Source: Allobrachymonas sp.
GTDB taxonomy: Bacteria; Pseudomonadota; Gammaproteobacteria; Burkholderiales; Burkholderiaceae_C
Length of the DNA: 45,986 nt
Direction: 5' to 3'
NCBI GenBank assembly: GCA_030529505.1
Contig: JAUMWT010000013.1
Coordinates: 1 to 45,986 of the forward strand
Shown here: piece by piece, positions 10,177-34,733 of the stretch
How positions within the stretch are numbered: the stretch's first letter is position 1
Layout: each line of letters opens with the position of its first letter
Made by a program: the position numbers and the translations under genes
Notes under the pieces: model-generated
Told to the model about the DNA's origin: nothing
What the model saw: the letters and a program-made list of their open reading frames with translations, nothing else
The model's database searches: none

Positions 10177-10468
10177 GTTTGGGCTGCAAGGGATAGGTGA
10201 AAACGTCAGCCTCGCGTCAAACCGGCAAGAGTGGCGGCTAAGGTGTCGCCCCAACGCGACAAGCCTGTTGCCTGTGTGCAACAAATCACAGATAAATTGA
10301 GCAAACCCTTTGCAGATCGGCCCAAGGTCTGGTGCAATAGAGCCAGCTTCCGATAAGGAGGTTGGCCCGGGGAGCCGGGAGCTTTGCGATCCAGGCATTT
10401 CCTGCAATGCAAAGCTCACAACAGGAAAATCCTCCGGCGCCCTCTGTTTAACCTTGGAGAAACTTGCA

Positions 10469-11572
10469 ATGAAAAAATCTCTGATTGCTGTTGCCGCTCT
10501 GGCTGCTGTGGGCGCTGCTTCCGCACAATCTTCCGTGACACTGTACGGTGTTGTTGACGCTGGCTATGGTGTTGAACGAGTTAAAAACAAAGTCACTACT
10601 GTCACTGGTAACGTTTCTGCGACTACTGCCAGCAGAACGCGTACCGCAGGCTTGATCTCTGGTGGCTTGTCCGGTAGCCGCTGGGGTTTGAAGGGCCAAG
10701 AAGATTTGGGTAACGGCTTGTCTGCTGTATTCAACGTTGAGGCTGGCTTCAACTCTACTAATGGTGCTTTCAATGCAGGCGGTTTCAATCGTCGCTCGGT
10801 AGTGGGTTTGAAGGGTAGTTTTGGTCAAGTTCTGCTGGGTCGCGATTACACTCCTGTGGACTCCATTGCTGGTGACTACCAGGCTATCTCTAAAGTCACC
10901 GAAGACGAATTGACCAAAGGCTTCAATACTGGCCGTTACAGCGGTGTTCACTACTCCGGCGAATTCGGTGGCGTAGGTGTGAATGCATTCATTGGTTACG
11001 ATGACAAGAAAACCACTAGCGCGACTGGTATGACCCGTACCCGCGCTGAAGGTTATGGCGTTGGTGTGAGCTACTCTGGCGGTCCTGTGACTGTGGGCGC
11101 GGCTGTTCAGCAATTCCGCGATAAAAATGCTACCACTACCACCCGTAAAAATACTGAGTACGGCGTTGGTGCCACCTATGATTTCACCGCTGCCAAGTTG
11201 TACGCTCACTACTTGGCTAACGATGGTGCGCATGCAGACTCCCGTCATGAGAAGCCTATGCAGCAGTTCGGCGTTGGCGTGACCGTACCTTTCGGCGCAT
11301 TTACTCTGGGCGCTCAATACGCTTATAACTACTGGAAAGCGCCTGCTGGCGTTATGGTGGCTGGTCAAGCAACTGCAAACAACGACAAGATCAAAGGGCA
11401 TGATTTTGCGCTGGAAGGTACTTACGCTTTGAGCAAGCGTACTGCTTTCTACGCTCGTGCTGCTCGCACCAACAGCTGGAAATTTAAAAACAGCTTCGTT
11501 TCCAACGGCGTGCGCAAAACTGCTCAGACTCATACCGACAGCTTTGCGGTTGGTCTGCGTCACCGCTTCTAA
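10469..11572 (+). CDS. Gram-negative trimeric porin (Omp32/OmpC-like)
   Basis: The 367-residue outer-membrane porin has a 20-residue signal peptide (MKKSLIAVAALAAVGAASAQ). The mature protein begins SSVTLYGVVDAGYG, the hallmark of Burkholderiales general porins. SRWGLKGQEDLGNGLSAVF, FNRRSVVGLKG and the loop-3 region VLLGRDYTP follow. The C-terminus ends in phenylalanine (GLRHRF), the sorting signal for BAM-mediated insertion. The ATG at 10469 begins the signal peptide and has TTGGAGA upstream. Codon choice is more AT-tolerant than in neighbouring genes, as often seen in very highly expressed porins. A strong terminator follows. Confidence 0.95.
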   Translation: MKKSLIAVAALAAVGAASAQSSVTLYGVVDAGYGVERVKNKVTTVTGNVSATTASRTRTAGLISGGLSGSRWGLKGQEDLGNGLSAVFNVEAGFNSTNGAFNAGGFNRRSVVGLKGSFGQVLLGRDYTPVDSIAGDYQAISKVTEDELTKGFNTGRYSGVHYSGEFGGVGVNAFIGYDDKKTTSATGMTRTRAEGYGVGVSYSGGPVTVGAAVQQFRDKNATTTTRKNTEYGVGATYDFTAAKLYAHYLANDGAHADSRHEKPMQQFGVGVTVPFGAFTLGAQYAYNYWKAPAGVMVAGQATANNDKIKGHDFALEGTYALSKRTAFYARAARTNSWKFKNSFVSNGVRKTAQTHTDSFAVGLRHRF

Positions 11573-24395: not shown

Positions 24396-24463
24396 GCTGC
24401 CCACACTGGCAAAAACCGCGCGCCCGGCAAACAAAGAAGCCACACCGCTTGGCGCGGCCCGCA

Positions 24464-24651
24464 GAGCCTGTTCACGACCTCGACGCGAGGCGATTGGACA
24501 GAGTGCGGGATGGGATGCAAGGCGCACACCAAAGGACATGAGCGAAGCGCATGGCCCGTGCGACATGTGCAAGAGGATCGACAAGATTGGCAACGCTGCA
24601 GACCGCCCGCATCCATTTTCAAGCGTCCGTGAGGAGAGTGTGAACAGGCTC
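24464..24651 (+). repeat. MITE-like element D
   Basis: A 188-bp copy with ends GAGCCTGTTCACGACCTC and GAGTGTGAACAGGCTC. Its first 16 bases agree with the IS5-type end at 248-269 except at two positions. The flanks are GCA and TCG, so no target duplication is visible. Confidence 0.9.
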
Positions 24652-24688
24652 TCGGATCGGCAGAGTCTGGCGGCGTTCGCCAGCCGCC

Positions 24689-24946
24689 TCAACGGCTGCT
24701 GAAGAAATAGGCCAAAAACGCCAGCGCCGCAATGGCCACAATGATCTTGCCCACCCAAGGCAGCAAGGCCCAGGCCGTCAGCCCCTTGACGGCCGTTTGC
24801 GCGGTTTTCGATTGCAGAAAAGGCTCATGCGCAGACTCCACCGCCTCTTTGCGGGATGACAGGGGCTGGGGCAGGCCGCAATGCGGGCAGGCCAAGGCCT
24901 GGTCGGATATGCGCCGTTTGCACTCCGGGCAAAGTATCAAAGCCAT
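24689..24946 (-). CDS. Small zinc-ribbon protein with C-terminal membrane segment
   Basis: The 85-residue product starts MALILCPECKRR and continues CPHCG, giving two CxxC knuckles (residues 6-9 and 20-23). It ends with a hydrophobic segment (VGKIIVAIAALAFLAYFF) that should anchor it with the ribbon in the cytoplasm. The ATG has a clear AGGGGAAG site. The function is unknown. It follows the exported-protein block on the same strand after a gap of 164 bp; whether it belongs to that operon is open. Confidence 0.75.
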   Translation of the reverse strand: MALILCPECKRRISDQALACPHCGLPQPLSSRKEAVESAHEPFLQSKTAQTAVKGLTAWALLPWVGKIIVAIAALAFLAYFFSSR

Positions 24947-25110
24947 GCTGCTCTTCCCCTTGTTCCAATCGCTCGTTCAAACCCTGTGCGCCAAGCAGGC
25001 AGCGTTTGGCGGGCCGCCCGTTTGCGTTTGCCCCCGGCCGCATCAACTGCTGGCCCTAGCTGCCTGAACACAAAGCCTGCCATGCCAGCGGGCCGATTTC
25101 CAGACCGCAG

Positions 25111-25824
25111 TCAAGGGGCCACAGGGGCGGTGCAACTCGCCCCCGCCGTTGCTGCGGCCGCCTCGCTGCTCAAGGTGCCGATCACGATTTCCACCCGGCG
25201 GTTGCGCTGCCGCCCCTCGGGGTGGTCGCTGCCATCGGGCTGGGTGTTGGCGGCCACGGGGCGTTCTTCGCCAAAGCCGCGCATTTGCAAATTGCGGGCG
25301 GGCAAGACCCTGCTCAACTGCGTGGCCACGGCCTGCGCCCGCCGCAGCGAAAGCGCCTGGTTGTAGGCGTGGCTGCCTTTGCTGTCGGTGTGGCCGTTGA
25401 TGCACACGGGCGCTTGCGGATAGGCGGCAATCAATTGCGCAGCCTTCGCCAGCACGGGCAGGGCCTCGGCACGCAGAGTGCTTTTGTCGAAGTCGAACAG
25501 CACGTCTGACGGCAAATCAATCACGATCTCCTGCGGCGTTTCGCGCGCCTGCAAGCTCTGCTTGAGTTGCTGCACTTGCTCCAGCTTTGTAGCCGGGTTG
25601 CCAGCGGCTTGCAAACTCGAATCCGCCGCCGCACGGCTCAGGCTGCTGGCCTGCTGCACGGGGCGCAAATGGCTGTCGCGCCTGGGGTGGGCTGGCACGG
25701 CCGACAGGCTTTGCGCCTGCGCGGCATGGATGCCCAGCCCGGCCACCAAGCCCAGCGCCCAGCATTTGCCTTGCCAGCCGCGCGCGCAACGGGCCAAGGC
25801 CGACATCACTGCGACGCGCCTCAT
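25111..25824 (-). CDS. OmpA-family peptidoglycan-binding protein
   Basis: The 237-residue product has an N-terminal signal region ending near AAQAQ. A linker of about 70 residues follows, and then a complete OmpA-type domain: VLFDFDKSTLRAEALPVL, INGHTDSKGSHAYNQALSLRRA with the Asp and Arg that bind diaminopimelate, and GFGEERPVA. It should sit in the periplasm bound to peptidoglycan. The start ATG overlaps the stop of the upstream lipoprotein gene (ATGA), so the two are translationally coupled. It is probably the cell-wall anchor of the CsgG-like export locus upstream. Confidence 0.88.
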   Translation of the reverse strand: MRRVAVMSALARCARGWQGKCWALGLVAGLGIHAAQAQSLSAVPAHPRRDSHLRPVQQASSLSRAAADSSLQAAGNPATKLEQVQQLKQSLQARETPQEIVIDLPSDVLFDFDKSTLRAEALPVLAKAAQLIAAYPQAPVCINGHTDSKGSHAYNQALSLRRAQAVATQLSRVLPARNLQMRGFGEERPVAANTQPDGSDHPEGRQRNRRVEIVIGTLSSEAAAATAGASCTAPVAP

Positions 25825-26486
25825 CCCGCACCCAGTGGCAGATCCAGTTTCAGGCCGGGGCCGGAATCGTCATCGGGCGCGTGGCCCTCGTTGATGACCC
25901 ATTCCACCTGGCGCGTGTTGGCGGGCAAGGCCCCCATGAAGACGAGCTGCCCTTCCAGCGTTTCGCCCTTGCGCACGCGCAGATGCGGGTTGTCGGCCGG
26001 GGCCTTGATCATGATCTTGTTGCCCGCTTCGTCGCGCAGATAGGTTTCGCCCGCGCTCAGGCTGGTGAAGATGGTTTTGTCGCCGCCCAGCGAGAGGCTG
26101 ACGCTGAGCACCGTGACATCAGCGGCCAGTTCAACCTGCTTGACGCGCACCGTCAGCCCCAGCGGCGAAACGGCTTGGGCATCCACCGCCACGATGCGGC
26201 CGGGGGCAGGCGCCGGTGCTGCGGCCATGCCATTGGCCTGTGCGCTGGCTTGCGCCACGGGTGCAGGCACGGCGTCTGCCGTGGGCTGCCCCTGCTGCTG
26301 AGCGGCCGCTTGCTGCTGGGTGGCATCGTGGGTTTGCGGGCCTTTGGAACAAGCGCCCAGCCACAGCGCACTGGTCGTTGCCAACAGCGCAGCACCCAGG
26401 CCTGCACGCACACGGCGCAGGCACGACGCACGGCGGGTGGCCGCAGCAGAAGCAGAAGAAACGGAAAAAGGATGGGTTGGGCTCAT
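25821..26486 (-). CDS. Lipoprotein of unknown function
   Basis: The 221-residue product has a long positively charged lead and the lipobox LGAC (Cys46). A Gln/Ala/Pro linker follows, and then a beta-rich domain: VDAQAVSPLGLTVRVKQVEL, VTVLSVSLSLGGDKTIF, and LEGQLVFMGALPANTRQVEW. The domain's shape recalls DUF4352-like immunoglobulin folds, but that is a guess. The inner ATG at 26486 has an excellent AAGGAGG site 5 nt upstream and is preferred over the frame's first ATG at 26507. The stop overlaps the OmpA-type gene's start. Confidence 0.75.
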   Translation of the reverse strand: MSPTHPFSVSSASAAATRRASCLRRVRAGLGAALLATTSALWLGACSKGPQTHDATQQQAAAQQQGQPTADAVPAPVAQASAQANGMAAAPAPAPGRIVAVDAQAVSPLGLTVRVKQVELAADVTVLSVSLSLGGDKTIFTSLSAGETYLRDEAGNKIMIKAPADNPHLRVRKGETLEGQLVFMGALPANTRQVEWVINEGHAPDDDSGPGLKLDLPLGAG

Positions 26487-26632
26487 GAAAACCTCCTTGA
26501 AATCCAATCACGCAGTAGATAAAAAAACAGGGGGACGGCGCACGATGGCGGCTGGGGCGGCAGCTTGCGATGGCTCGCAGTCGGCTTGGCTGAACAGCGG
26601 CAAGCGGCTCAAGCGCGGCCCACCGAATCGCA

Positions 26633-27196
26633 TCAACGAATGGTGACGCTGTTCACATTGCTCACGCCACCAGTCGATGTATGGCTGCCTTTGACTTGCT
26701 TGCAGTTGCCGCGCACTTGCACATCGTGGCTGTTGCGCCCGGTCACGATCACGGTTTTGCCTTGCAAGCTCTTGCCATCGGCCACCACGCTGTTGACGTT
26801 GACTTGCGCGCCCGGCTCGCCCTGGCACTCCACCACGACCTGGCCGGCCTGGTTGCCCACGACGTTGATCGAGTTCACGCCGCTGCCGCTGCTCTGCACC
26901 ACGCGCACGCTGTGGCCGCTGGCGTGCACATTGCTGTGCGCCTTGCCTGGGGCGCTGTTGCTGATGGCTTGGGCGCGCGCTTCGGCCGCGGCAATCTGTT
27001 TGTTCGCACGGCTCACGGCCGCATCGGCCGCGGCTTGCGCCGCTTTCACCTGCGCTTGCACGCGGGCCTCGATCGCATCCAGCGATTGCGGCTGGGATGC
27101 GGATTGGGCCTGAGCCACGCCGTGCGCCAGCAGGGCCACGGCCGAACCCGCCAAGGCAGCCATGCCGCCCCGCAGGTGAGAAAAGAAAACAGTCAT
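26633..27196 (-). CDS. Exported repeat-motif protein
   Basis: The 187-residue product has a signal peptide ending in AQA (LAGSAVALLAHGVAQA). A coiled-coil-like Ala-rich helix of about 60 residues follows (AAADAAVSRANKQIAAAEAR), and then a beta-rich tail with motifs SGSGVNSINVVGN, VNVNSVVADGK and VSNVNSVTIR. The tail resembles DUF3060-like domains and shares the N-x-N-S-[VI] motif with the repeat proteins at 30809 and 33806. The ATG at 27196 has an AAAGGAG site. It lies within the CsgG-like gene block and may be a subunit or chaperone of the exported fibre. Confidence 0.7.
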   Translation of the reverse strand: MTVFFSHLRGGMAALAGSAVALLAHGVAQAQSASQPQSLDAIEARVQAQVKAAQAAADAAVSRANKQIAAAEARAQAISNSAPGKAHSNVHASGHSVRVVQSSGSGVNSINVVGNQAGQVVVECQGEPGAQVNVNSVVADGKSLQGKTVIVTGRNSHDVQVRGNCKQVKGSHTSTGGVSNVNSVTIR

Positions 27197-27294
27197 GATG
27201 CAACTCCTTTCATCGTGCTGCTGATTCAAAAAACTGGCCGCAGTTGTTGCACGCACAGTTGCACACGCGCTTGGGGCCATGCGCCAGATTGCTT

Positions 27295-28731
27295 TCAGGG
27301 CGCGACCGGCGTAGCAGACGAAGCGGGGGCTTCGACCGGCGCTGCGGGCGCAGGCGCTGGCGGCGGGGCAGGCCGCAATTCCACGGGGCCCACGGGCGCA
27401 GGGGGGACTGAAGGCGCTGGCGGCACAGCCGCTGGCCCAGCCTGGCGGCCCGAGCGTTTGCCTGTTGCGGATCGCTTGCCCTGTGCTGGTGCAGCAGGTG
27501 CAGCCGCCGCGGGGCCAAGGGCTGGCGCGCGCCCATCCATCGGCAAGGCTGATGCAGGCAGTGGCGTGGCCGCCATCTGCCCGGGCAAAACGCCCGCGCC
27601 TAAGCTGGGTTGCACATGGCCCGGCACCGGCCCGATCACCGCGCCCCAGGCTCCGCCCGACTGGACTGCGCCGGGGGCCGCAGCTGTGGGCTGGGCGGCC
27701 GCTGTGGCGGCGCTGCCCTTGTCACCCTTGCCGCCCTTGTCGGCTTTTGATCCTTTGGCGGCACGACGTGCGCTGCCGCCATCGGCCGCGCTGCCCGCCA
27801 CCCCTTGCCCTGTGGCGCCCTGCGCCACGCCCGGCACCACAGCCGCTGCGCTCATCGGCGGCATGTGGGGCGCGCCCGGCAGGCGTTGTCCGTCCAGCAC
27901 GGGCGCAGGGGCGGCCACAGACGGCAGGCCCCACGGCCCGGGCGCCGCATGCCCGGGGGCACCGCGGCTCATCTGCTGGGCCAGTTCTTCGGCAAAGCGG
28001 TCGGCCTGGGCCAGTTCGTAGCTGGCCATGCTTTGGCGCAGGGTGCGCACGGTTTGCGCAGCCTGCTTGCCCGCGGCACTATCGGGCGCCACACGCTGGG
28101 CCAATTGGGCATAGCCCAAGGCCCGCACGCGATCAGGCGCCGTGCCTTGGCCACGGCGGTACATCTCGCTCAGGCGGGTCATGGCCTGCGGGTCGCCGCG
28201 CACGGCGCCCAGCACGTACCAGCGGTAGGCCTGGCTGATGTCGCCCATGCCCTGGCGCTGCCGCTGATAAGCCTCGCCCACCAGAGTCATGAGCTGCGGG
28301 TTGCGGGTGCGCAAGGCCTCCTGCTTGAGTTGCTCCAGCTCTCGCCCGGGCATGTTCGGCGGCGTGCAGCCGGGCAGGTGCTGGCCGCTTTGGGCCGCAG
28401 CGGCGCAGGCTTCCAGAAAGCGTGTGCCAGCATTGCCCGCAGCAGGTGGCGGCGCGGCTTGCGCTGCACGTGCGGCCTGGGCAGCGGCACCGCGAACGGC
28501 CCCTGTGGCGGCACGGCCCGCCTGCGTGGCCTGGGCGTTTTGTGCGGCTTGCACCGCTTGCGTGCCCTGCACGGTTTGCGCCACGGCCAGCGGTGCGCTG
28601 GCCCAGCCTGCCAGCAGGCCAATCAGCCACAGGCGCGGGGCAGCAAGCGCGGCAAGGGGTTTTCTCCATGCACACAGGCGGGGCGGCTTGCGGCTTGCAT
28701 TTCGGTCATCCAACAAGGCGGCTGCTTTCAT
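27295..28731 (-). CDS. Exported Sel1-repeat protein with long Pro/Ala tail
   Basis: The 478-residue product has a signal-anchor region near residues 25-50. Two to three Sel1-like repeats follow at about 140-250 (MTLVGEAYQRQRQGMGD, AYRWYVLGAVRGDPQA, YRRGQGTAPD). A low-complexity Ala/Pro/Gly tail of more than 200 residues makes up the rest. Sel1 repeats are solenoids that hold protein partners together. The GTG at 28746 overlaps the upstream CsgG-like stop; the ATG at 28731 has a GGGGG site 5 nt before it and is my choice. Tight coupling to the CsgG-like gene suggests a scaffold for the secretion complex. Confidence 0.72.
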   Translation of the reverse strand: MKAAALLDDRNASRKPPRLCAWRKPLAALAAPRLWLIGLLAGWASAPLAVAQTVQGTQAVQAAQNAQATQAGRAATGAVRGAAAQAARAAQAAPPPAAGNAGTRFLEACAAAAQSGQHLPGCTPPNMPGRELEQLKQEALRTRNPQLMTLVGEAYQRQRQGMGDISQAYRWYVLGAVRGDPQAMTRLSEMYRRGQGTAPDRVRALGYAQLAQRVAPDSAAGKQAAQTVRTLRQSMASYELAQADRFAEELAQQMSRGAPGHAAPGPWGLPSVAAPAPVLDGQRLPGAPHMPPMSAAAVVPGVAQGATGQGVAGSAADGGSARRAAKGSKADKGGKGDKGSAATAAAQPTAAAPGAVQSGGAWGAVIGPVPGHVQPSLGAGVLPGQMAATPLPASALPMDGRAPALGPAAAAPAAPAQGKRSATGKRSGRQAGPAAVPPAPSVPPAPVGPVELRPAPPPAPAPAAPVEAPASSATPVAP

Positions 28732-28742
28732 CACGGCCCCCT

Positions 28743-29999
28743 TCACTGCGCAGCGGGCTGCGCCGCAGATGCCGGCGCCGCATCGCCTGGCGCGCCAGCG
28801 CCCGCATCAACCGGGGCCGATGGGCTCTGCGCCTGGGCCACGGCGGTAGGCTGTGCGTCCCACGGCATGGGCACGTTGAAGAAGAGCGGCTCGAAGCCTT
28901 CCCAGGTGAGCACATCCACCCGGTCGCCAATCTGCGGGAAGTGCGTGGTGTACACATTGCGGATGGCCTGCACGGTGGCCTCATCCAGTTGCTGGTTGAT
29001 CTGCACCGGCTGCCCGTACTTTTGCAGCATGACCTGGATCATGGCGATCTTCATCGGCTGCTCCAGGCTGTTGAAGGCGTTGCGCACATTGGCCACCACC
29101 ACGGGGTCGGGCTTGCCGTCGGGAATGCAGCGCCAGTAGGGCGTGTTGGTGGCCTTGCCCAGCAGTTCCAGCACGCTCAAATCCACCAGGGTGCGAATGG
29201 CCGAGTGCCGCCCTTGCAAGTATTTGCCTTCGAGCTTGAAGCCGAAAGCGTCGCCGTAAAAGCCCAGGCTGGCATTGGTTTCCTTGCTGAAGTTCCACAC
29301 CTTGATGACGTTGGCCGCCTGCATCTGCGGCACCATCTGGTTGTTGCCGAAGTTGACCAGGTTCAAGTCCAGCCCCAGCGAAGAGAGAATGGCCGTGCGC
29401 TTCAAATCCATGCCCGTATTGGTTTTGCCGCGGCCCTTGCCGAAGTCGAGCGACAGATTGTTGGCGCGGCCCGCGCCCGACAAGGCGCGGTCGAATTCAG
29501 TCAGCGCGCCGGTGATCACGTAGTTGGGCATGGTCACGCCGAACTGCGCGCCCATTTGCGCCTGCGCCACGAGGTAATCGGGGTAGAAGGGCACGTACAC
29601 CACATTGGGGCCGATGCGGTTGATGGCGGTGCGCACCATTTCGGTGATTTCGCCCGGAATTTCGGCCCCGGCCAGCGGGTGCGAGAGGTTGGTGGCATCG
29701 CGAATGTCGCGCGTTTGCACGTAGATGGTGGGGTCGCCCTGCTTGTAAACCTGCAGCATGTCGCCAAAGCGGCGCAGGGCCTGCGAATAGTCGTTGAGGT
29801 TGGCCGCGGGCTTGAGTTTGCGCTGCTCGCTTTCGGCATAGAGCTTTTGCGCGTCGTCCACTGCCGCATTCATGCTGGCGCAGCCGCCTAATGCGCCGAA
29901 CGCGCCCATCAGGGCCAGCGCGGCCAGCAGGCGCGCGCGCGGCACGGCCGATGAGGTTTTGGATTGAGGTTTGCAATTGGAATGAAGCATGGCGCTCAT
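28743..29999 (-). CDS. CsgG/HfaB-like outer-membrane lipoprotein
   Basis: The 418-residue product has a lipobox LGGC (Cys40) followed by ASMNAAV, so it should reach the outer membrane. The core resembles CsgG/HfaB, the pore that secretes curli or holdfast-anchor subunits: GEITEMVRTAINRIG, VVYVPFYPDYLVAQAQMG, then YVITGALTEFDRALSG and DLKRTAILSSLGLDLNLVNF. LVDLSVLELLGK closes the CsgG domain. A C-terminal extension of about 100 residues is not part of usual CsgG. It lies in a run of same-strand exported-protein genes. The family is fairly clear; the cargo is inferred. Confidence 0.82.
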   Translation of the reverse strand: MSAMLHSNCKPQSKTSSAVPRARLLAALALMGAFGALGGCASMNAAVDDAQKLYAESEQRKLKPAANLNDYSQALRRFGDMLQVYKQGDPTIYVQTRDIRDATNLSHPLAGAEIPGEITEMVRTAINRIGPNVVYVPFYPDYLVAQAQMGAQFGVTMPNYVITGALTEFDRALSGAGRANNLSLDFGKGRGKTNTGMDLKRTAILSSLGLDLNLVNFGNNQMVPQMQAANVIKVWNFSKETNASLGFYGDAFGFKLEGKYLQGRHSAIRTLVDLSVLELLGKATNTPYWRCIPDGKPDPVVVANVRNAFNSLEQPMKIAMIQVMLQKYGQPVQINQQLDEATVQAIRNVYTTHFPQIGDRVDVLTWEGFEPLFFNVPMPWDAQPTAVAQAQSPSAPVDAGAGAPGDAAPASAAQPAAQ

Positions 30000-30216
30000 G
30001 AATGAATCCGTTTAGCCAATGTTTTTATTGAAATGTGCGAAGCCACCCAAACAGCCAGTGTGTCCGCCTCCTGAAAAAAACCGCTCGCGCGCAAACGCCT
30101 CGGGGGCGCTGGCCGCGCGCCAACGGTTTCCGAAAAGGCGCATGGGCTGCGTTTGCGCACGTCTCAACATGCCTGCGCGCCCCATGCGCCCGAACCGTCA
30201 AAGCAACTGTTCCCCC

Positions 30217-30720
30217 TTATGGGTTGACCAGGGTGATGTTTTCCGGCGCTTTGCCGTCCACATACAAAATCACCGTGCCGCTGACGTTGCCGTCGATCTG
30301 CGGGCTGGCGATGCGAATGCTGCCGTCTGCGCCGCGCGTCACATCGTTGTAGTGGGTGCGAATCACCACGTTCTGCTGGTTGCCCGGCAACTTCAGGCTG
30401 CCGTCGGCTTGCTCCAGCGCGCGGGCGCTGAGGATCCGGCTTTCGCGCAGCGATTTGGCCGCCAGCGATTTGGCCGCCACCTGGACCGAGACCTTGTCGT
30501 GCAGTTCGATATCGCCCTTTTGCGCATCCTTGTAATTGGCCAGCGCCTCGTTGTAGTTCACGATCTGCGCCTGCCCCACGGCGGGCAGCAGCCAGCAGGC
30601 CGCGCCCAGCAAGGCTGCCCAGCGCATTGCGCCCCGCTCGGCCCTTGCCGTCCTTTCAGCCCGCCCGCTGCATTGGCCCCTTTCATGCGGGGCAGGGGCT
30701 GCCGTCATCGTCTTTTTCAT
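30217..30720 (-). CDS. Small exported protein of the CsgG-like locus
   Basis: The 167-residue product has an unusually long charged lead and then a signal segment (MRWAALLGAACWLLPAVGQAQ). The mature part, about 115 residues, starts IVNYNEALANYKDAQKGDIEL and ends PQIDGNVSGTVILYVDGKAP. I do not recognise the family. The ATG at 30720 has AAAGGAG 6 nt upstream. Its place between the repeat protein and the CsgG-like gene suggests a periplasmic chaperone, nucleator or minor subunit, but nothing in the sequence proves this. Confidence 0.65.
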   Translation of the reverse strand: MKKTMTAAPAPHERGQCSGRAERTARAERGAMRWAALLGAACWLLPAVGQAQIVNYNEALANYKDAQKGDIELHDKVSVQVAAKSLAAKSLRESRILSARALEQADGSLKLPGNQQNVVIRTHYNDVTRGADGSIRIASPQIDGNVSGTVILYVDGKAPENITLVNP

Positions 30721-30808
30721 CACGCACTCCTTTCTTCCCGATCACAGGCTTGCGCAGCGCACACGGGTTTCGTTCGACCACGGTGCAGCTGCGTTTGACC
30801 ACGGCTCT

Positions 30809-33403
30809 TCATCGGTACACCCGATCGGCTGCGCCACCCACAATCACCGACTGGCTCACCACGCCCGTTGGCGGCAGCACGCCAGCGCCCTTGTTGGCCG
30901 ACCAGCCCACGCCGCCGGTCACACCTGCTGCGGCATGCAGCGATCCGCCGTGGTTCACGCGCACGCTGCCTGCCGTCATGCCCGGCCCGGCCACCGTGGT
31001 ATTGCCCACGATGGCCACCTTGCCGTCGATGCGGCCGTGGTTGATCACCGAATTGGCCACGCTGCCCGGGCCTACGGCTGCGCCGTTGTTGCCCGCGATC
31101 AGCACCGTGCCTTTCAAATCACCGTGGTTGACGACCGAATTCACCGTGCCGCCCGCCGTGGCATGGCCGCGGTTGCCCGCAATCACCACCTTGCCGCTCA
31201 AGCGGCCCTTGTTGTCCACGCTGTTGACCGTGCTGCCTTCACCCCGGGCCGAGCCCTGGTTGCCGATCAGGGCCACGGTGGCGTTTTTCATCTCTTTCGT
31301 GTTGCGCACGCTATTGACCAGGCCGCCTCCGTCCGACCTGGCCTGGTTGCCCGCAATCAGCACGCGGCTGTTGTGCATCTCGCGGCGGTTGTCCACGCTG
31401 TTGAGCTGCCCGCCGCGCTGGGCATGGCCGCGGTTGCCGCTGATGACGATGGTGCTTTGGCTGATGGTGCCGCTGTTGCGCACCCCGTTGACCTGCCCGC
31501 CATTGACGGAGCTGCTATCGGCATTGCCCGCCAGCGTGATGGTGCTGTTGCTGATCTGCTTGCTGTTCTCAACACTGCTCACGCTCCCCTTGCCATGCAC
31601 GCTGCCGCGGTTGCCCGCCGCGGTGATGCGGCTGGAGCGGATCTGCCCGCGGTTATCCACGCTGTGCGCCTGACCCTGCTCGGCCACGCTGCCCTGGTTG
31701 CTGCGCAGCGTGATGCGGCTGGAGCGGATCTGCCCGCGGTTATCCACACTGTGCGCCTGGCCCTGCTCGGCCACGCTGCCCTGGTTGCTGCGCAGCGTGA
31801 TGCGGCTGCCGCTTTCGATGCGCGCACCGCTGCGGTTGCGCACGCTGGCCACGGCCGCATCGTCACGCATGGCGCGCAGGCTGCTGATGCGGTTGCTTTC
31901 GATCTGCACCTGGCTTTGGCCGATGTGGCCTTCGTTGTGCAAGCTGGCGGCCAGCGCGGTTTTGCCGTTGTCGGCGCGCACTTCAGCACTTTGGTTGCGG
32001 GCGATGCGCACATGGGTTTTGTCGAGCTGCCCATCGCCTTCGCTCACCACGCTGTTGGCAGCGGCCAGGCCCTTGTTGGCCGCGACCTGCTGGGCCGTGT
32101 TGCGCGACACCTGCACTTGCGCATCGCGCACTTGCCCGTTGATTTGCACCGCATTGGCCTGCGCGTGGCCCACGCCGCGATTGAGCACCGCGCGCCCAAA
32201 GGCCGTGCCTTCGCTGCCCTGGCTGCTGATGTGGCTGGCGCTGTTGCGATCCAGCACCACGGCGCCGCCGCTGATCTTGCCGCGCCCGTTCACGGCCAGC
32301 GCATTGGCGTTGACGCGCCCGCCATCGGCCTGCAAATTGTTGGCGCGGTTGCTGCGCACCAGCACGCTGGCGCGGTTCAGCTCGGTGCGCTCTTGCCCTT
32401 CGGCATACACACCATTGGCCACCAGAATGCCGTTTTTGCTGCGCCCGCCACCCAGCACCTGACCCGATCCGCCCTGGGTGCGCACATCTTGCGCGGTGTT
32501 GCCGGTCACGGCCACGGTGCCGCCTTGCATCTGGCCCTGGCCGTACACCGCCACCGAGTTGACAAAAGCCGTGCCACCACTGGCATCCACGCGCGTGGCC
32601 TGGTTGTTTTTGAGCAGCAGGCGCGCGTCTTGGCGCAATTCACTGTCGCGCAGCGAAATGGAGTTGGCCGCGGCCATGCTGCGCGTGGTGCGGCTGGCCG
32701 CACCAGCGGCCACCGAGCCTTCGCCGCCGCGCGCGCTGATCTGGTTGGCGCGGTTGCCGCTTTGGTGCAGCTGGGCGCCGTCCAGCTTGGACTGGCGCGC
32801 CAGCACGCTGTTGGCCAGGGCCGAACCGCCATCGGCCTGCACGCGCTCGGCCTGATTGTCGAGCAGGGCCGAGCGGGTGTTTTTCATCCCCGAGCCTTCA
32901 AGCGACTGGCTGTTGGCCAGGCCGCGCCCCTGCTTGCTGACGGATGCCACCGCGCCCAGCGCCACACTGCCGCTGCCGCCGCTGGCATTCACATCCCTGG
33001 CGCGGTTGTTGGCATTAATCAGGCGGCTGCTGTCCACGCTGCTGCCCGAGCCGCCTTCAGCCACGATGCTGTTGGCCGCTGCCTGCGCGCCGAAACTGCT
33101 GATCGAGCCTTCGCTGCGGTTGCTGCGCACGCGCAACTGGCTGCTGCGCACATCCTGCTGGCGCAGGGCCACGGCATTGGCATGGGTGGCACTGCTCAAA
33201 TCCACCTTGCCCACCACGTTGGCGCCCACGCCGCCCTTGCCGCCCTGGCTTTGCACCGCGCCGCTTTGCCGGTTGCCCGACACACGCACCTGGCTGTTGC
33301 CATCCAGTCTGGATTGGGCCTGCACGGCGGACAGGGGCAGCACAGCCAGCGCCAGCGCAGCGGCCAGCGCCAAAGGGCGAACAGAGAATTGAGGCAAATC
33401 CAT
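30809..33403 (-). CDS. Large exported N-S-V repeat protein (putative fibre subunit)
   Basis: The 864-residue product has a clean signal peptide (LALAAALALAVLPLSAVQAQ). Nearly the whole remainder is repeats. In the first half, units follow S-x-[LV]-x-V-x-x-N...V-x-A-x-G-G...A-N-S-V. In the second half they shift to about 30-residue units such as NSVDNRGQIRSSRITLRSNQ and end in units like NSVVNHGDLKGTVLIAGN. There are no cysteines. Such N/Q/S/G/V beta-strand repeats resemble curlin-like or hair-like exported fibres. The start has AAGGAT 6 nt upstream. It likely uses the CsgG-like pore downstream. Function is inferred from architecture and context only. Confidence 0.75.
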   Translation of the reverse strand: MDLPQFSVRPLALAAALALAVLPLSAVQAQSRLDGNSQVRVSGNRQSGAVQSQGGKGGVGANVVGKVDLSSATHANAVALRQQDVRSSQLRVRSNRSEGSISSFGAQAAANSIVAEGGSGSSVDSSRLINANNRARDVNASGGSGSVALGAVASVSKQGRGLANSQSLEGSGMKNTRSALLDNQAERVQADGGSALANSVLARQSKLDGAQLHQSGNRANQISARGGEGSVAAGAASRTTRSMAAANSISLRDSELRQDARLLLKNNQATRVDASGGTAFVNSVAVYGQGQMQGGTVAVTGNTAQDVRTQGGSGQVLGGGRSKNGILVANGVYAEGQERTELNRASVLVRSNRANNLQADGGRVNANALAVNGRGKISGGAVVLDRNSASHISSQGSEGTAFGRAVLNRGVGHAQANAVQINGQVRDAQVQVSRNTAQQVAANKGLAAANSVVSEGDGQLDKTHVRIARNQSAEVRADNGKTALAASLHNEGHIGQSQVQIESNRISSLRAMRDDAAVASVRNRSGARIESGSRITLRSNQGSVAEQGQAHSVDNRGQIRSSRITLRSNQGSVAEQGQAHSVDNRGQIRSSRITAAGNRGSVHGKGSVSSVENSKQISNSTITLAGNADSSSVNGGQVNGVRNSGTISQSTIVISGNRGHAQRGGQLNSVDNRREMHNSRVLIAGNQARSDGGGLVNSVRNTKEMKNATVALIGNQGSARGEGSTVNSVDNKGRLSGKVVIAGNRGHATAGGTVNSVVNHGDLKGTVLIAGNNGAAVGPGSVANSVINHGRIDGKVAIVGNTTVAGPGMTAGSVRVNHGGSLHAAAGVTGGVGWSANKGAGVLPPTGVVSQSVIVGGAADRVYR
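31623..31796 (-). repeat. 87-bp tandem duplication inside the large repeat gene
   Basis: 31623-31709 and 31710-31796 are two 87-bp copies differing at only two positions. They encode the same 29 residues twice (ITLRSNQGSVAEQGQAHSVD plus nine), without a frame change. The duplication is clearly recent. Confidence 0.9.
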
Positions 33404-33429
33404 GACCGATCCTTAGCGACACCCACTCA

Positions 33430-33473
33430 GAATCTCTTCAAAATCTCCTCGCAGCGAGATCTTGAACAAACTC
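33430..33473. repeat. 44-bp mini-element made only of inverted ends (E)
   Basis: GAATCTCTTCAAAATCTC and GAGATCTTGAACAAACTC are joined by only a few bases and flanked on both sides by TCA (33427-33429 and 33474-33476). It is the two terminal repeats with almost no interior. Confidence 0.75.
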
Positions 33474-33476
33474 TCA

Positions 33477-33650
33477 GAGCCTGTTCACGATCTCAACGCG
33501 AGGCGATTGGACAGAGTGCGGGATGGGATGCAAGGCGCACACCAAAGCACATGAGCGAAGCGCATAGCCCGTGCCATGGACGAGATTTGCAACGCAGCAG
33601 ACCGCCCGCCTCCGTATTCAGGCGCCCGTGAGGAGATTGTGAGCAGGCTC
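33477..33650 (+). repeat. MITE-like element F
   Basis: A 174-bp copy with ends GAGCCTGTTCACGATCTC and GAGATTGTGAGCAGGCTC. It is flanked by TCA on both sides (33474-33476 and 33651-33653), the left one shared with element E. It sits between the small and the large repeat-protein genes of the CsgG-like locus. Confidence 0.95.
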
Positions 33651-33805
33651 TCAGGGAATAAGAGAGCCAGACAAGAGAAATGAAAGGCCCTGCAGCGCAA
33701 CGCTCGTTGCAACCAGACGAGCCTCTCCCCTCTTGCCATTGATGCCAGGCCCGCCCGCGCACGCGCTTCACCCAAGCAGCACACGCGGGCGAACCCTTCA
33801 CGTCA

Positions 33806-34165
33806 TCACTGCAACTGCAAGCTGTTGACGTTGGCCTGGCCGCCAATGGCCGTTACCTCGCCTGATTCGTTATCCATCACGTTGACCGTGCTCTCATTGA
33901 TCTTGGAATTGATCAGCTGCACGGAGTTGACGTTGGCTTGCCCCGTCAAATTGGCAGAAACGCCATAGCCCCCAGCCGATCCGCCGCCAACACTCACCTT
34001 GTTGGATTTGTTTTTCATGATATTGATGGTGCTGTTCTTCACTTCAGAACCGCTGGAACCTTTCACGCTGGCCAGGCCGGGTATTTCAAGTCCGCCAGAT
34101 TGCGCAAATGCGCTGGCAGAGAACGCAAGGGCCAAAGCGCCGGTCATCATTGCAAGCTTTTTCAT
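33806..34165 (-). CDS. Small exported repeat protein (putative fibre subunit)
   Basis: The 119-residue product has a signal peptide (MMTGALALAFSASAFAQ). The mature part, about 97 residues, contains two similar units, each with a polar N/S/K/E strand and the close GQANVNSVQL or GQANVNSLQL. The glycine-rich turn SVGGGSAGGYGVS separates them. This size, the two-unit design and the Gly/Asn/Ser/Gln content resemble curlin-type amyloid subunits, but there is no clear CsgA consensus. Base composition is lower in GC than nearby. The ATG has GAGGAG at about 8 nt. It is the first gene of the same-strand block. Confidence 0.75.
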   Translation of the reverse strand: MKKLAMMTGALALAFSASAFAQSGGLEIPGLASVKGSSGSEVKNSTINIMKNKSNKVSVGGGSAGGYGVSANLTGQANVNSVQLINSKINESTVNVMDNESGEVTAIGGQANVNSLQLQ

Positions 34166-34544: not shown

Positions 34545-34733
34545 CAAGCTGTTCAAAGCCTCAAGGCGAGGCCATTGGACGGGGGCGGGATGCGGTGCAA
34601 GGCGCACATTTTTCTTTTATGCATGTGGCGCAGCGCCCATGTAACACAGAAAGGTCTGGACAAGATTGGCAAAGAAGCAGACTGCCCGCTTCCATCATTC
34701 AAGCGCCCGTGTGAAAACTTTGAGCAACTTTTC
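34545..34733 (+). repeat. MITE-like element G (diverged)
   Basis: From CAAGCTGTTCAAAGCCTC to about TTTGAGCAACTTTTC it keeps the family's internal order (GGGATGCGGTGCAAGGCGCAC, GACAAGATTGGCAA, CTTCCATCATTCAAGCGCCC). Both ends are eroded, so the exact limits and target duplication cannot be set. Confidence 0.75.

Follow-up and report, generated by a model that had tools for sequence, protein, structure and literature searches.

We analyzed a stretch of Allobrachymonas sp. DNA, 45,986 nucleotides in length (contig JAUMWT010000013.1, our contig C51; hereafter the window), from a genome of 2.39 Mb that is 83.5% complete. Based on the list of open reading frames (ORFs) and their translations, the window holds a cluster of nine genes, termed here A–I, all on the minus strand and running from 34165 down to 24689. 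An earlier reading of the same DNA (the original prediction) described nine or ten same-strand genes around a CsgG-like lipoprotein; nine are present, but not a tenth. In order of transcription, the genes are:

33806-34165, minus strand: A, small exported repeat protein of 119 aa, candidate polymer subunit
30809-33403, minus strand: B, large exported repeat protein of 864 aa
30217-30720, minus strand: C, exported protein of 167 aa that adjoins D, candidate pore accessory
28743-29999, minus strand: D, lipoprotein of 418 aa, CsgG/HfaB superfamily, candidate outer-membrane pore
27295-28746, minus strand: E, Sel1-like exported protein whose long tail is rich in Ala and Pro
26633-27196, minus strand: F, exported protein of 187 aa, candidate minor or nucleating subunit
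25821-26486, minus strand: G, second lipoprotein, 221 aa
25111-25824, minus strand: H, OmpA-domain protein of 237 aa, candidate peptidoglycan anchor
24689-24946, minus strand: I, 85 aa, zinc-ribbon-like at its N-terminus and with a hydrophobic stretch at the C-terminal end

Signal peptides (A, B, C, E, F and H) and lipoboxes (D and G) were read by eye from the translations. Both predicted overlaps between neighboring genes exist in the window: the start of E lies inside the end of D (4 nt, 28743-28746), and the start of H inside the end of G (4 nt, 25821-25824). Among related loci (see below), with ORFs as called, 4-nt overlaps were seen at 13 of 33 loci for D/E and at 10 of 30 for G/H. E measures 483 aa from its GTG start, or 478 aa if the in-frame ATG at 28731 is used instead. 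Scans for promoters and terminators stayed at the level of shuffled sequence (2 found versus a shuffle mean of 1.0, and 10 versus 11.7, respectively).

The identity of D is central to any interpretation of the cluster. Direct scans of D did not return CsgG, so profile–profile comparison was needed. Aligned with hhalign, the D family scored 97.7% against HfaB-like proteins, compared to at most 2.8% for 20 column-shuffled decoys, 0.64% for the reversed control, and at most 5.9% for five unrelated operon families. With signal peptides removed, the score was 96.7% over 196 columns (30 decoys at most 2.8%). D aligned to HfaB-like and CsgG proteins over ~230-240 residues, up to residue 289-292, and the D family plus relatives carrying DUF4384 scored 86% against core CsgG. 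The D profile also matched an HfaB-like protein of locus L117 at E 1.5e-4, the best single stretch reaching only 0.078. The lipobox cysteine of D, C40, is invariant across 35 sequences. By these profile comparisons, D is a member of the CsgG/HfaB superfamily, related to HfaB-like proteins at the superfamily level only. The original prediction had called the 418-residue product CsgG-like and proposed a profile search against CsgG and HfaB, with a protein unlike CsgG as the adverse outcome. That outcome did not occur; the relatedness holds at the profile level, but a direct match to Pfam CsgG does not.

The candidate cargo proteins A, B and F have an Asn/Gly/Ser-rich repeat module in common. Two copies of it follow the signal peptide of A, as detected with a hidden Markov model of the A repeat, and Asn, Gly and Ser make up 44% of mature A, which lacks Cys, Phe and Trp. 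The same model scored 35.1 bits on B, versus 6.8 for the best of 200 B shuffles, and 9.6 bits on F, versus 6.9 for the best of 200 F shuffles, the latter being weak alone. Profile matches without signal peptides reached 98.1% for A-F, 96.0% for B-A and 77.3% for B-F, with decoys at most 1.2%. The module occupies the N-terminal part of B and the C-terminal part of F. Residues 500-800 of B show a 29-residue period (z 15.7); in residues 30-500 the periodicity is weaker, at spacings of 83-85 and 50 (z no higher than 4.6). In 35 relatives, B as called (starts uncertain) spans 754-1272 aa, most being longer than the 864 aa of the window. The original prediction noted neither this length difference nor the module in F. 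In the PDB, the B and A profiles matched unrelated proteins only, and weakly (E 0.58 and 0.26, respectively). A conserved stretch, IPG...GS.GSEV, follows the signal peptide of A, and a similar-looking one, GLGW...PG, is seen in B of relatives (L053-L086). These stretches possibly act as an export tag.

For the remaining genes, domain searches gave a range of results. H carries PF00691 (OmpA) at 67.3 bits, versus a cut-off of 27.2, in line with the OmpA-type protein predicted. The predicted Sel1 scaffold can be seen as a Sel1 likeness in E, but its score of 26.2 bits falls below the curated cut-off of 30.7. Similarly, I matches the zinc ribbon PF13248 at 26.9 bits, just under the curated cut-off of 27. 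No Pfam family reaches its cut-off on G, whose lipobox was read from the sequence, and C has no match in Pfam or NCBIfam. A possible kinship of C to small proteins upstream of DUF4384 homologues was rejected (score at most 1.6%).

One profile scan of genome contigs retrieved 36 related loci, and at all 36 the genes found keep their order and strand. B and C are present at every locus, A and D at 35, E at 33, H at 31, F and G at 30 each, and I at 27. Several of these absences are locus ends (e.g. L052, L054, L055, L056 and L067), and within continuing loci no I was found at L063, L081, L082 and L083, and no F at L072. The loci are partly non-independent: L058 and L060 both come from strain E41, and several share genomes with separately retrieved loci. 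Conservation of order and strand indicates that the A–I set is more than chance. It also answers the question, raised with the original prediction, of whether the same order occurs in other Burkholderiales, the neighbors being conserved with D.

By title, the loci come from Brachymonas, Vandammella, Xylophilus, Variovorax, Xenophilus, Pseudacidovorax, Acidovorax, Ottowia, Diaphorobacter and some others. NCBI places the first two (Brachymonas now being Allobrachymonas) in the family Comamonadaceae, and we take the other named genera to belong there too. The nearest named locus is that of a Brachymonas metagenome-assembled genome (L052), with a D protein 90% identical over residues 40-344. D is matched at E<=0.001 by 40 of 200 genomes of the family, 12 of them at >=65% identity; the other 28 have no more than distant homologues, of 22-32% identity (own genome included in the 40 and the 12). 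A second, distant D match occurs in 6 of the 11 other genomes having a close orthologue. Across the order, a close-orthologue profile (E<=1e-20) found 6 of 399 genomes, namely our own, two of the family, and G331, G335 and G498. The match in G331, which belongs to another family of the order, is nearly full-length, and those in G335 and G498 are partial. A wider D profile had matches, many of them weak and partial, in 19 of the 200 order-level and 40 of the 299 phylum-level genomes searched (own included).

G331 harbors a smaller OmpA-A-C-D locus (L170, 9291-12009). Its genes match as OmpA-like (E 2.7e-10), A-like (2.3e-9), C-like (8.4e-5) and D (7.2e-119), with D 47% identical over 353 residues. 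Profiles of E, F, G and I have no match at L170, and the B profile falls on the A-like gene. This locus, not noted in the original prediction, would represent a simpler version of the system. In a phylogenetic tree, the D orthologues and the L170 protein form one clade (100/99), and the DUF4384 proteins form its neighbor group (94/82), joined by L171 and L179. The last of these, earlier labelled HfaB-like, is placed among the DUF4384 neighbors on a very long branch. A 100/97 branch separates D from CsgG and from the HfaB-like proteins of L102, L108 and L109. Beyond the D clade the branching is uncertain, since the tree program warns of long branches meeting.

These data suggest that A–I probably encode an outer-membrane secretion and anchoring system of the CsgG/HfaB superfamily, with its own cargo family, that exports a beta-solenoid or amyloid-like surface polymer. 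This would agree with the distinct fiber or amyloid secretion system of the original prediction. D would be a lipoprotein forming an oligomeric pore in the outer membrane. Sec would carry A, B and F over the inner membrane; they would then pass through D unfolded and, once outside, fold and stack via their Asn/Gly-rich repeats, with A as the small main subunit, B as the long subunit and F as a minor or nucleating subunit. C may act at the pore, comparable to CsgE/CsgF in role but not by descent, and E, G and H may form a scaffold that links the complex with the cell wall. Such a polymer would likely serve in adhesion, as biofilm matrix or as an envelope coat. No publication describing the operon was found among the titles, abstract starts and passages covered (subscription papers and preprints being outside scope). 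The pore superfamily of D is known, and the cargo and accessory set appear to be new. More tentatively, the operon may represent an undescribed class of CsgG-superfamily secretion system in Comamonadaceae, with its own pore branch (D), accessory (C) and cargo (A/B/F). Such a system would have arisen from a smaller OmpA-A-C-D cassette, and its product would be a surface polymer, either functional amyloid or beta-solenoid.

Several results weigh against the proposed export system. The failure of D to match Pfam CsgG extends to all proteins of the genome. Direct NCBIfam and PDB searches with D alone gave nothing CsgG/HfaB-like, a PDB search with the close-orthologue profile gave no CsgG, and one with a mixed profile returned CsgG at E 0.14, ranked after unrelated matches at 0.08-0.09. 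Pfam CsgG is weakly matched by 2 of the 12 members of the mixed D alignment (best E 0.11). The D family alone scores 5% against core CsgG and 5-13% against other CsgG subgroups, the CsgG-family reference proteins being drawn from 33 matching genomes of 120. The HfaB-like reference set is small, comprising three sequences (L102, L108 and L109) set apart by look. A, B, F and C scored at most 4.1% against one HfaA and two HfaD sequences, which we take to be such from their position. Finally, a pore role for HfaB itself has only been proposed, according to the consulted passages of PMC6707917.

Four other explanations bear on the same data. A, B and F could be exported through D and fold as single beta-solenoid coat or adhesin proteins, with no amyloid polymer. 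The regular 29-residue period of B (z 15.7) and its variable length across relatives, as in repeat adhesins, are consistent with this. Yet the module is common to three proteins of very different length, which fits subunit co-assembly but is not decisive, and we view single solenoids as rather unlikely. Alternatively, D, A, B and F may form a complex that anchors exopolysaccharide, as HfaABD does, instead of a protein fiber. Among the named proteins tested, D is closest to HfaB-like ones, and HfaABD too, as portrayed in the excerpts consulted, has a CsgG-like lipoprotein alongside two surface proteins, one small and one large. But no match to HfaA or HfaD was seen for A, B or F, and there are no polysaccharide genes within A–I (wider flanks were not searched for any), so that a holdfast-type anchor seems unlikely. 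Another idea, that D is a structural lipoprotein and no pore, with the repeat proteins reaching the surface by another route or staying periplasmic, draws on the fact that pore function is known for CsgG and not for the branch of D, which as a family scores only 5% against core CsgG. However, the alignment of D to HfaB-like and CsgG proteins spans ~230-240 residues, and D, A and C recur together; we consider this explanation very improbable. An ordinary, diverged curli system, suggested by a CsgG-superfamily lipoprotein next to small Asn/Gly/Ser-rich repeat proteins, has next to no likelihood and was rejected, because CsgE, CsgF and curlin repeats are missing and D misses Pfam CsgG. Specifically, neither CsgE nor CsgF was found in the one genome searched, our own (83.5% complete), with E. 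coli controls positive. A scan limited to the nine A–I proteins found no curlin repeat at E<=1, and a looser one at E<=10, covering two A proteins and one F protein, gave none either. The predicted absence of csgE, csgF and csgA/csgB-type subunits is therefore borne out within this scope; csgD was not searched for.

If the favored reading of an exported surface polymer is right, a conserved operon with a distant CsgG/HfaB branch and different repeat cargo would show one pore scaffold serving unrelated polymers. The operon would also make an adhesion or matrix system of environmental bacteria accessible to experiment, and might add a new type of pore.

Other features of the window were also noted. 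Upstream of A lies a divergent alr-like gene, found in only one of the 36 related loci (L052). A dispersed element of ~190 bp occurs at 24462-24653 and 33475-33652, with a part at 34659-34695; the genome has 41 long matches to it (77-100% identity, window copies counted). With ends that form what reads as a 13-base inverted repeat, it has the look of a miniature transposable element. The A–B gap, 402 nt here and 89 nt in L052, contains one copy in the window. At 10310-11572, in the lowest-G+C stretch of the window (52-54%), there is a 420-aa ORF whose product presumably resembles a Gram-negative porin.

Comparison with known systems places A–I beside, but apart from, three others. Curli (csgBAC/csgDEFG), as described in the consulted parts of PMC3521004 and PMC12822426, similarly combines a pore of the same superfamily with a small Asn/Gly/Ser-rich repeat subunit and a longer companion. 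It differs in its curlin repeat, in CsgE and CsgF, and in a pore within Pfam CsgG, beyond which D lies. HfaABD of Caulobacter resembles A–I in pairing a CsgG-like lipoprotein with small and large surface proteins, and D is related to HfaB-like proteins; as the available passages report (PMC6707917), both HfaD and the amyloid-like HfaA depend on HfaB to be placed on the surface. Its cargo is unlike A, B and F, A–I has six further genes, and the order is A-B-C-D here versus hfaA-hfaB-hfaD in L117.

The nearest relatives of D are CsgG/HfaB-like lipoproteins with peptidoglycan-binding and DUF4384 domains (22-32% identity, hhalign 99.7%), the sole kind of D homologue in 28 of the 200 family genomes. 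DUF4384 was found in 7 of 12 members scanned and is absent from D of the window. Motif-picked Gln/Asn-rich repeat proteins came from 14 of 21 loci of distant D homologues (L014, L015, L018-L022, L024-L027, L029, L030 and L124; among the 21, L028 and L123 are one genome). These proteins are small, exported and curlin-like in look, and a small protein often lies between the repeat gene and the D homologue. From this set, a likely wrong-frame ORF of L017 was dropped and two ORFs from L015 were kept; the five proteins scanned gave no match to curlin Pfam. A relation of A to the Gln/Asn-rich proteins, which at first scored 60-80%, was rejected, as it fell to 0.08% without signal peptides. The apparent link was an artefact, because the aligned stretch was the signal peptide. 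Judged by profile, then, the pore-like proteins of the two kinds of loci are related, and no relation of cargo was detected. The DUF4384-linked loci are possibly another amyloid-type export system. Should A–I prove to be the class proposed here, the two together would mean that the CsgG scaffold has been recruited repeatedly for the export of unrelated repeat polymers.

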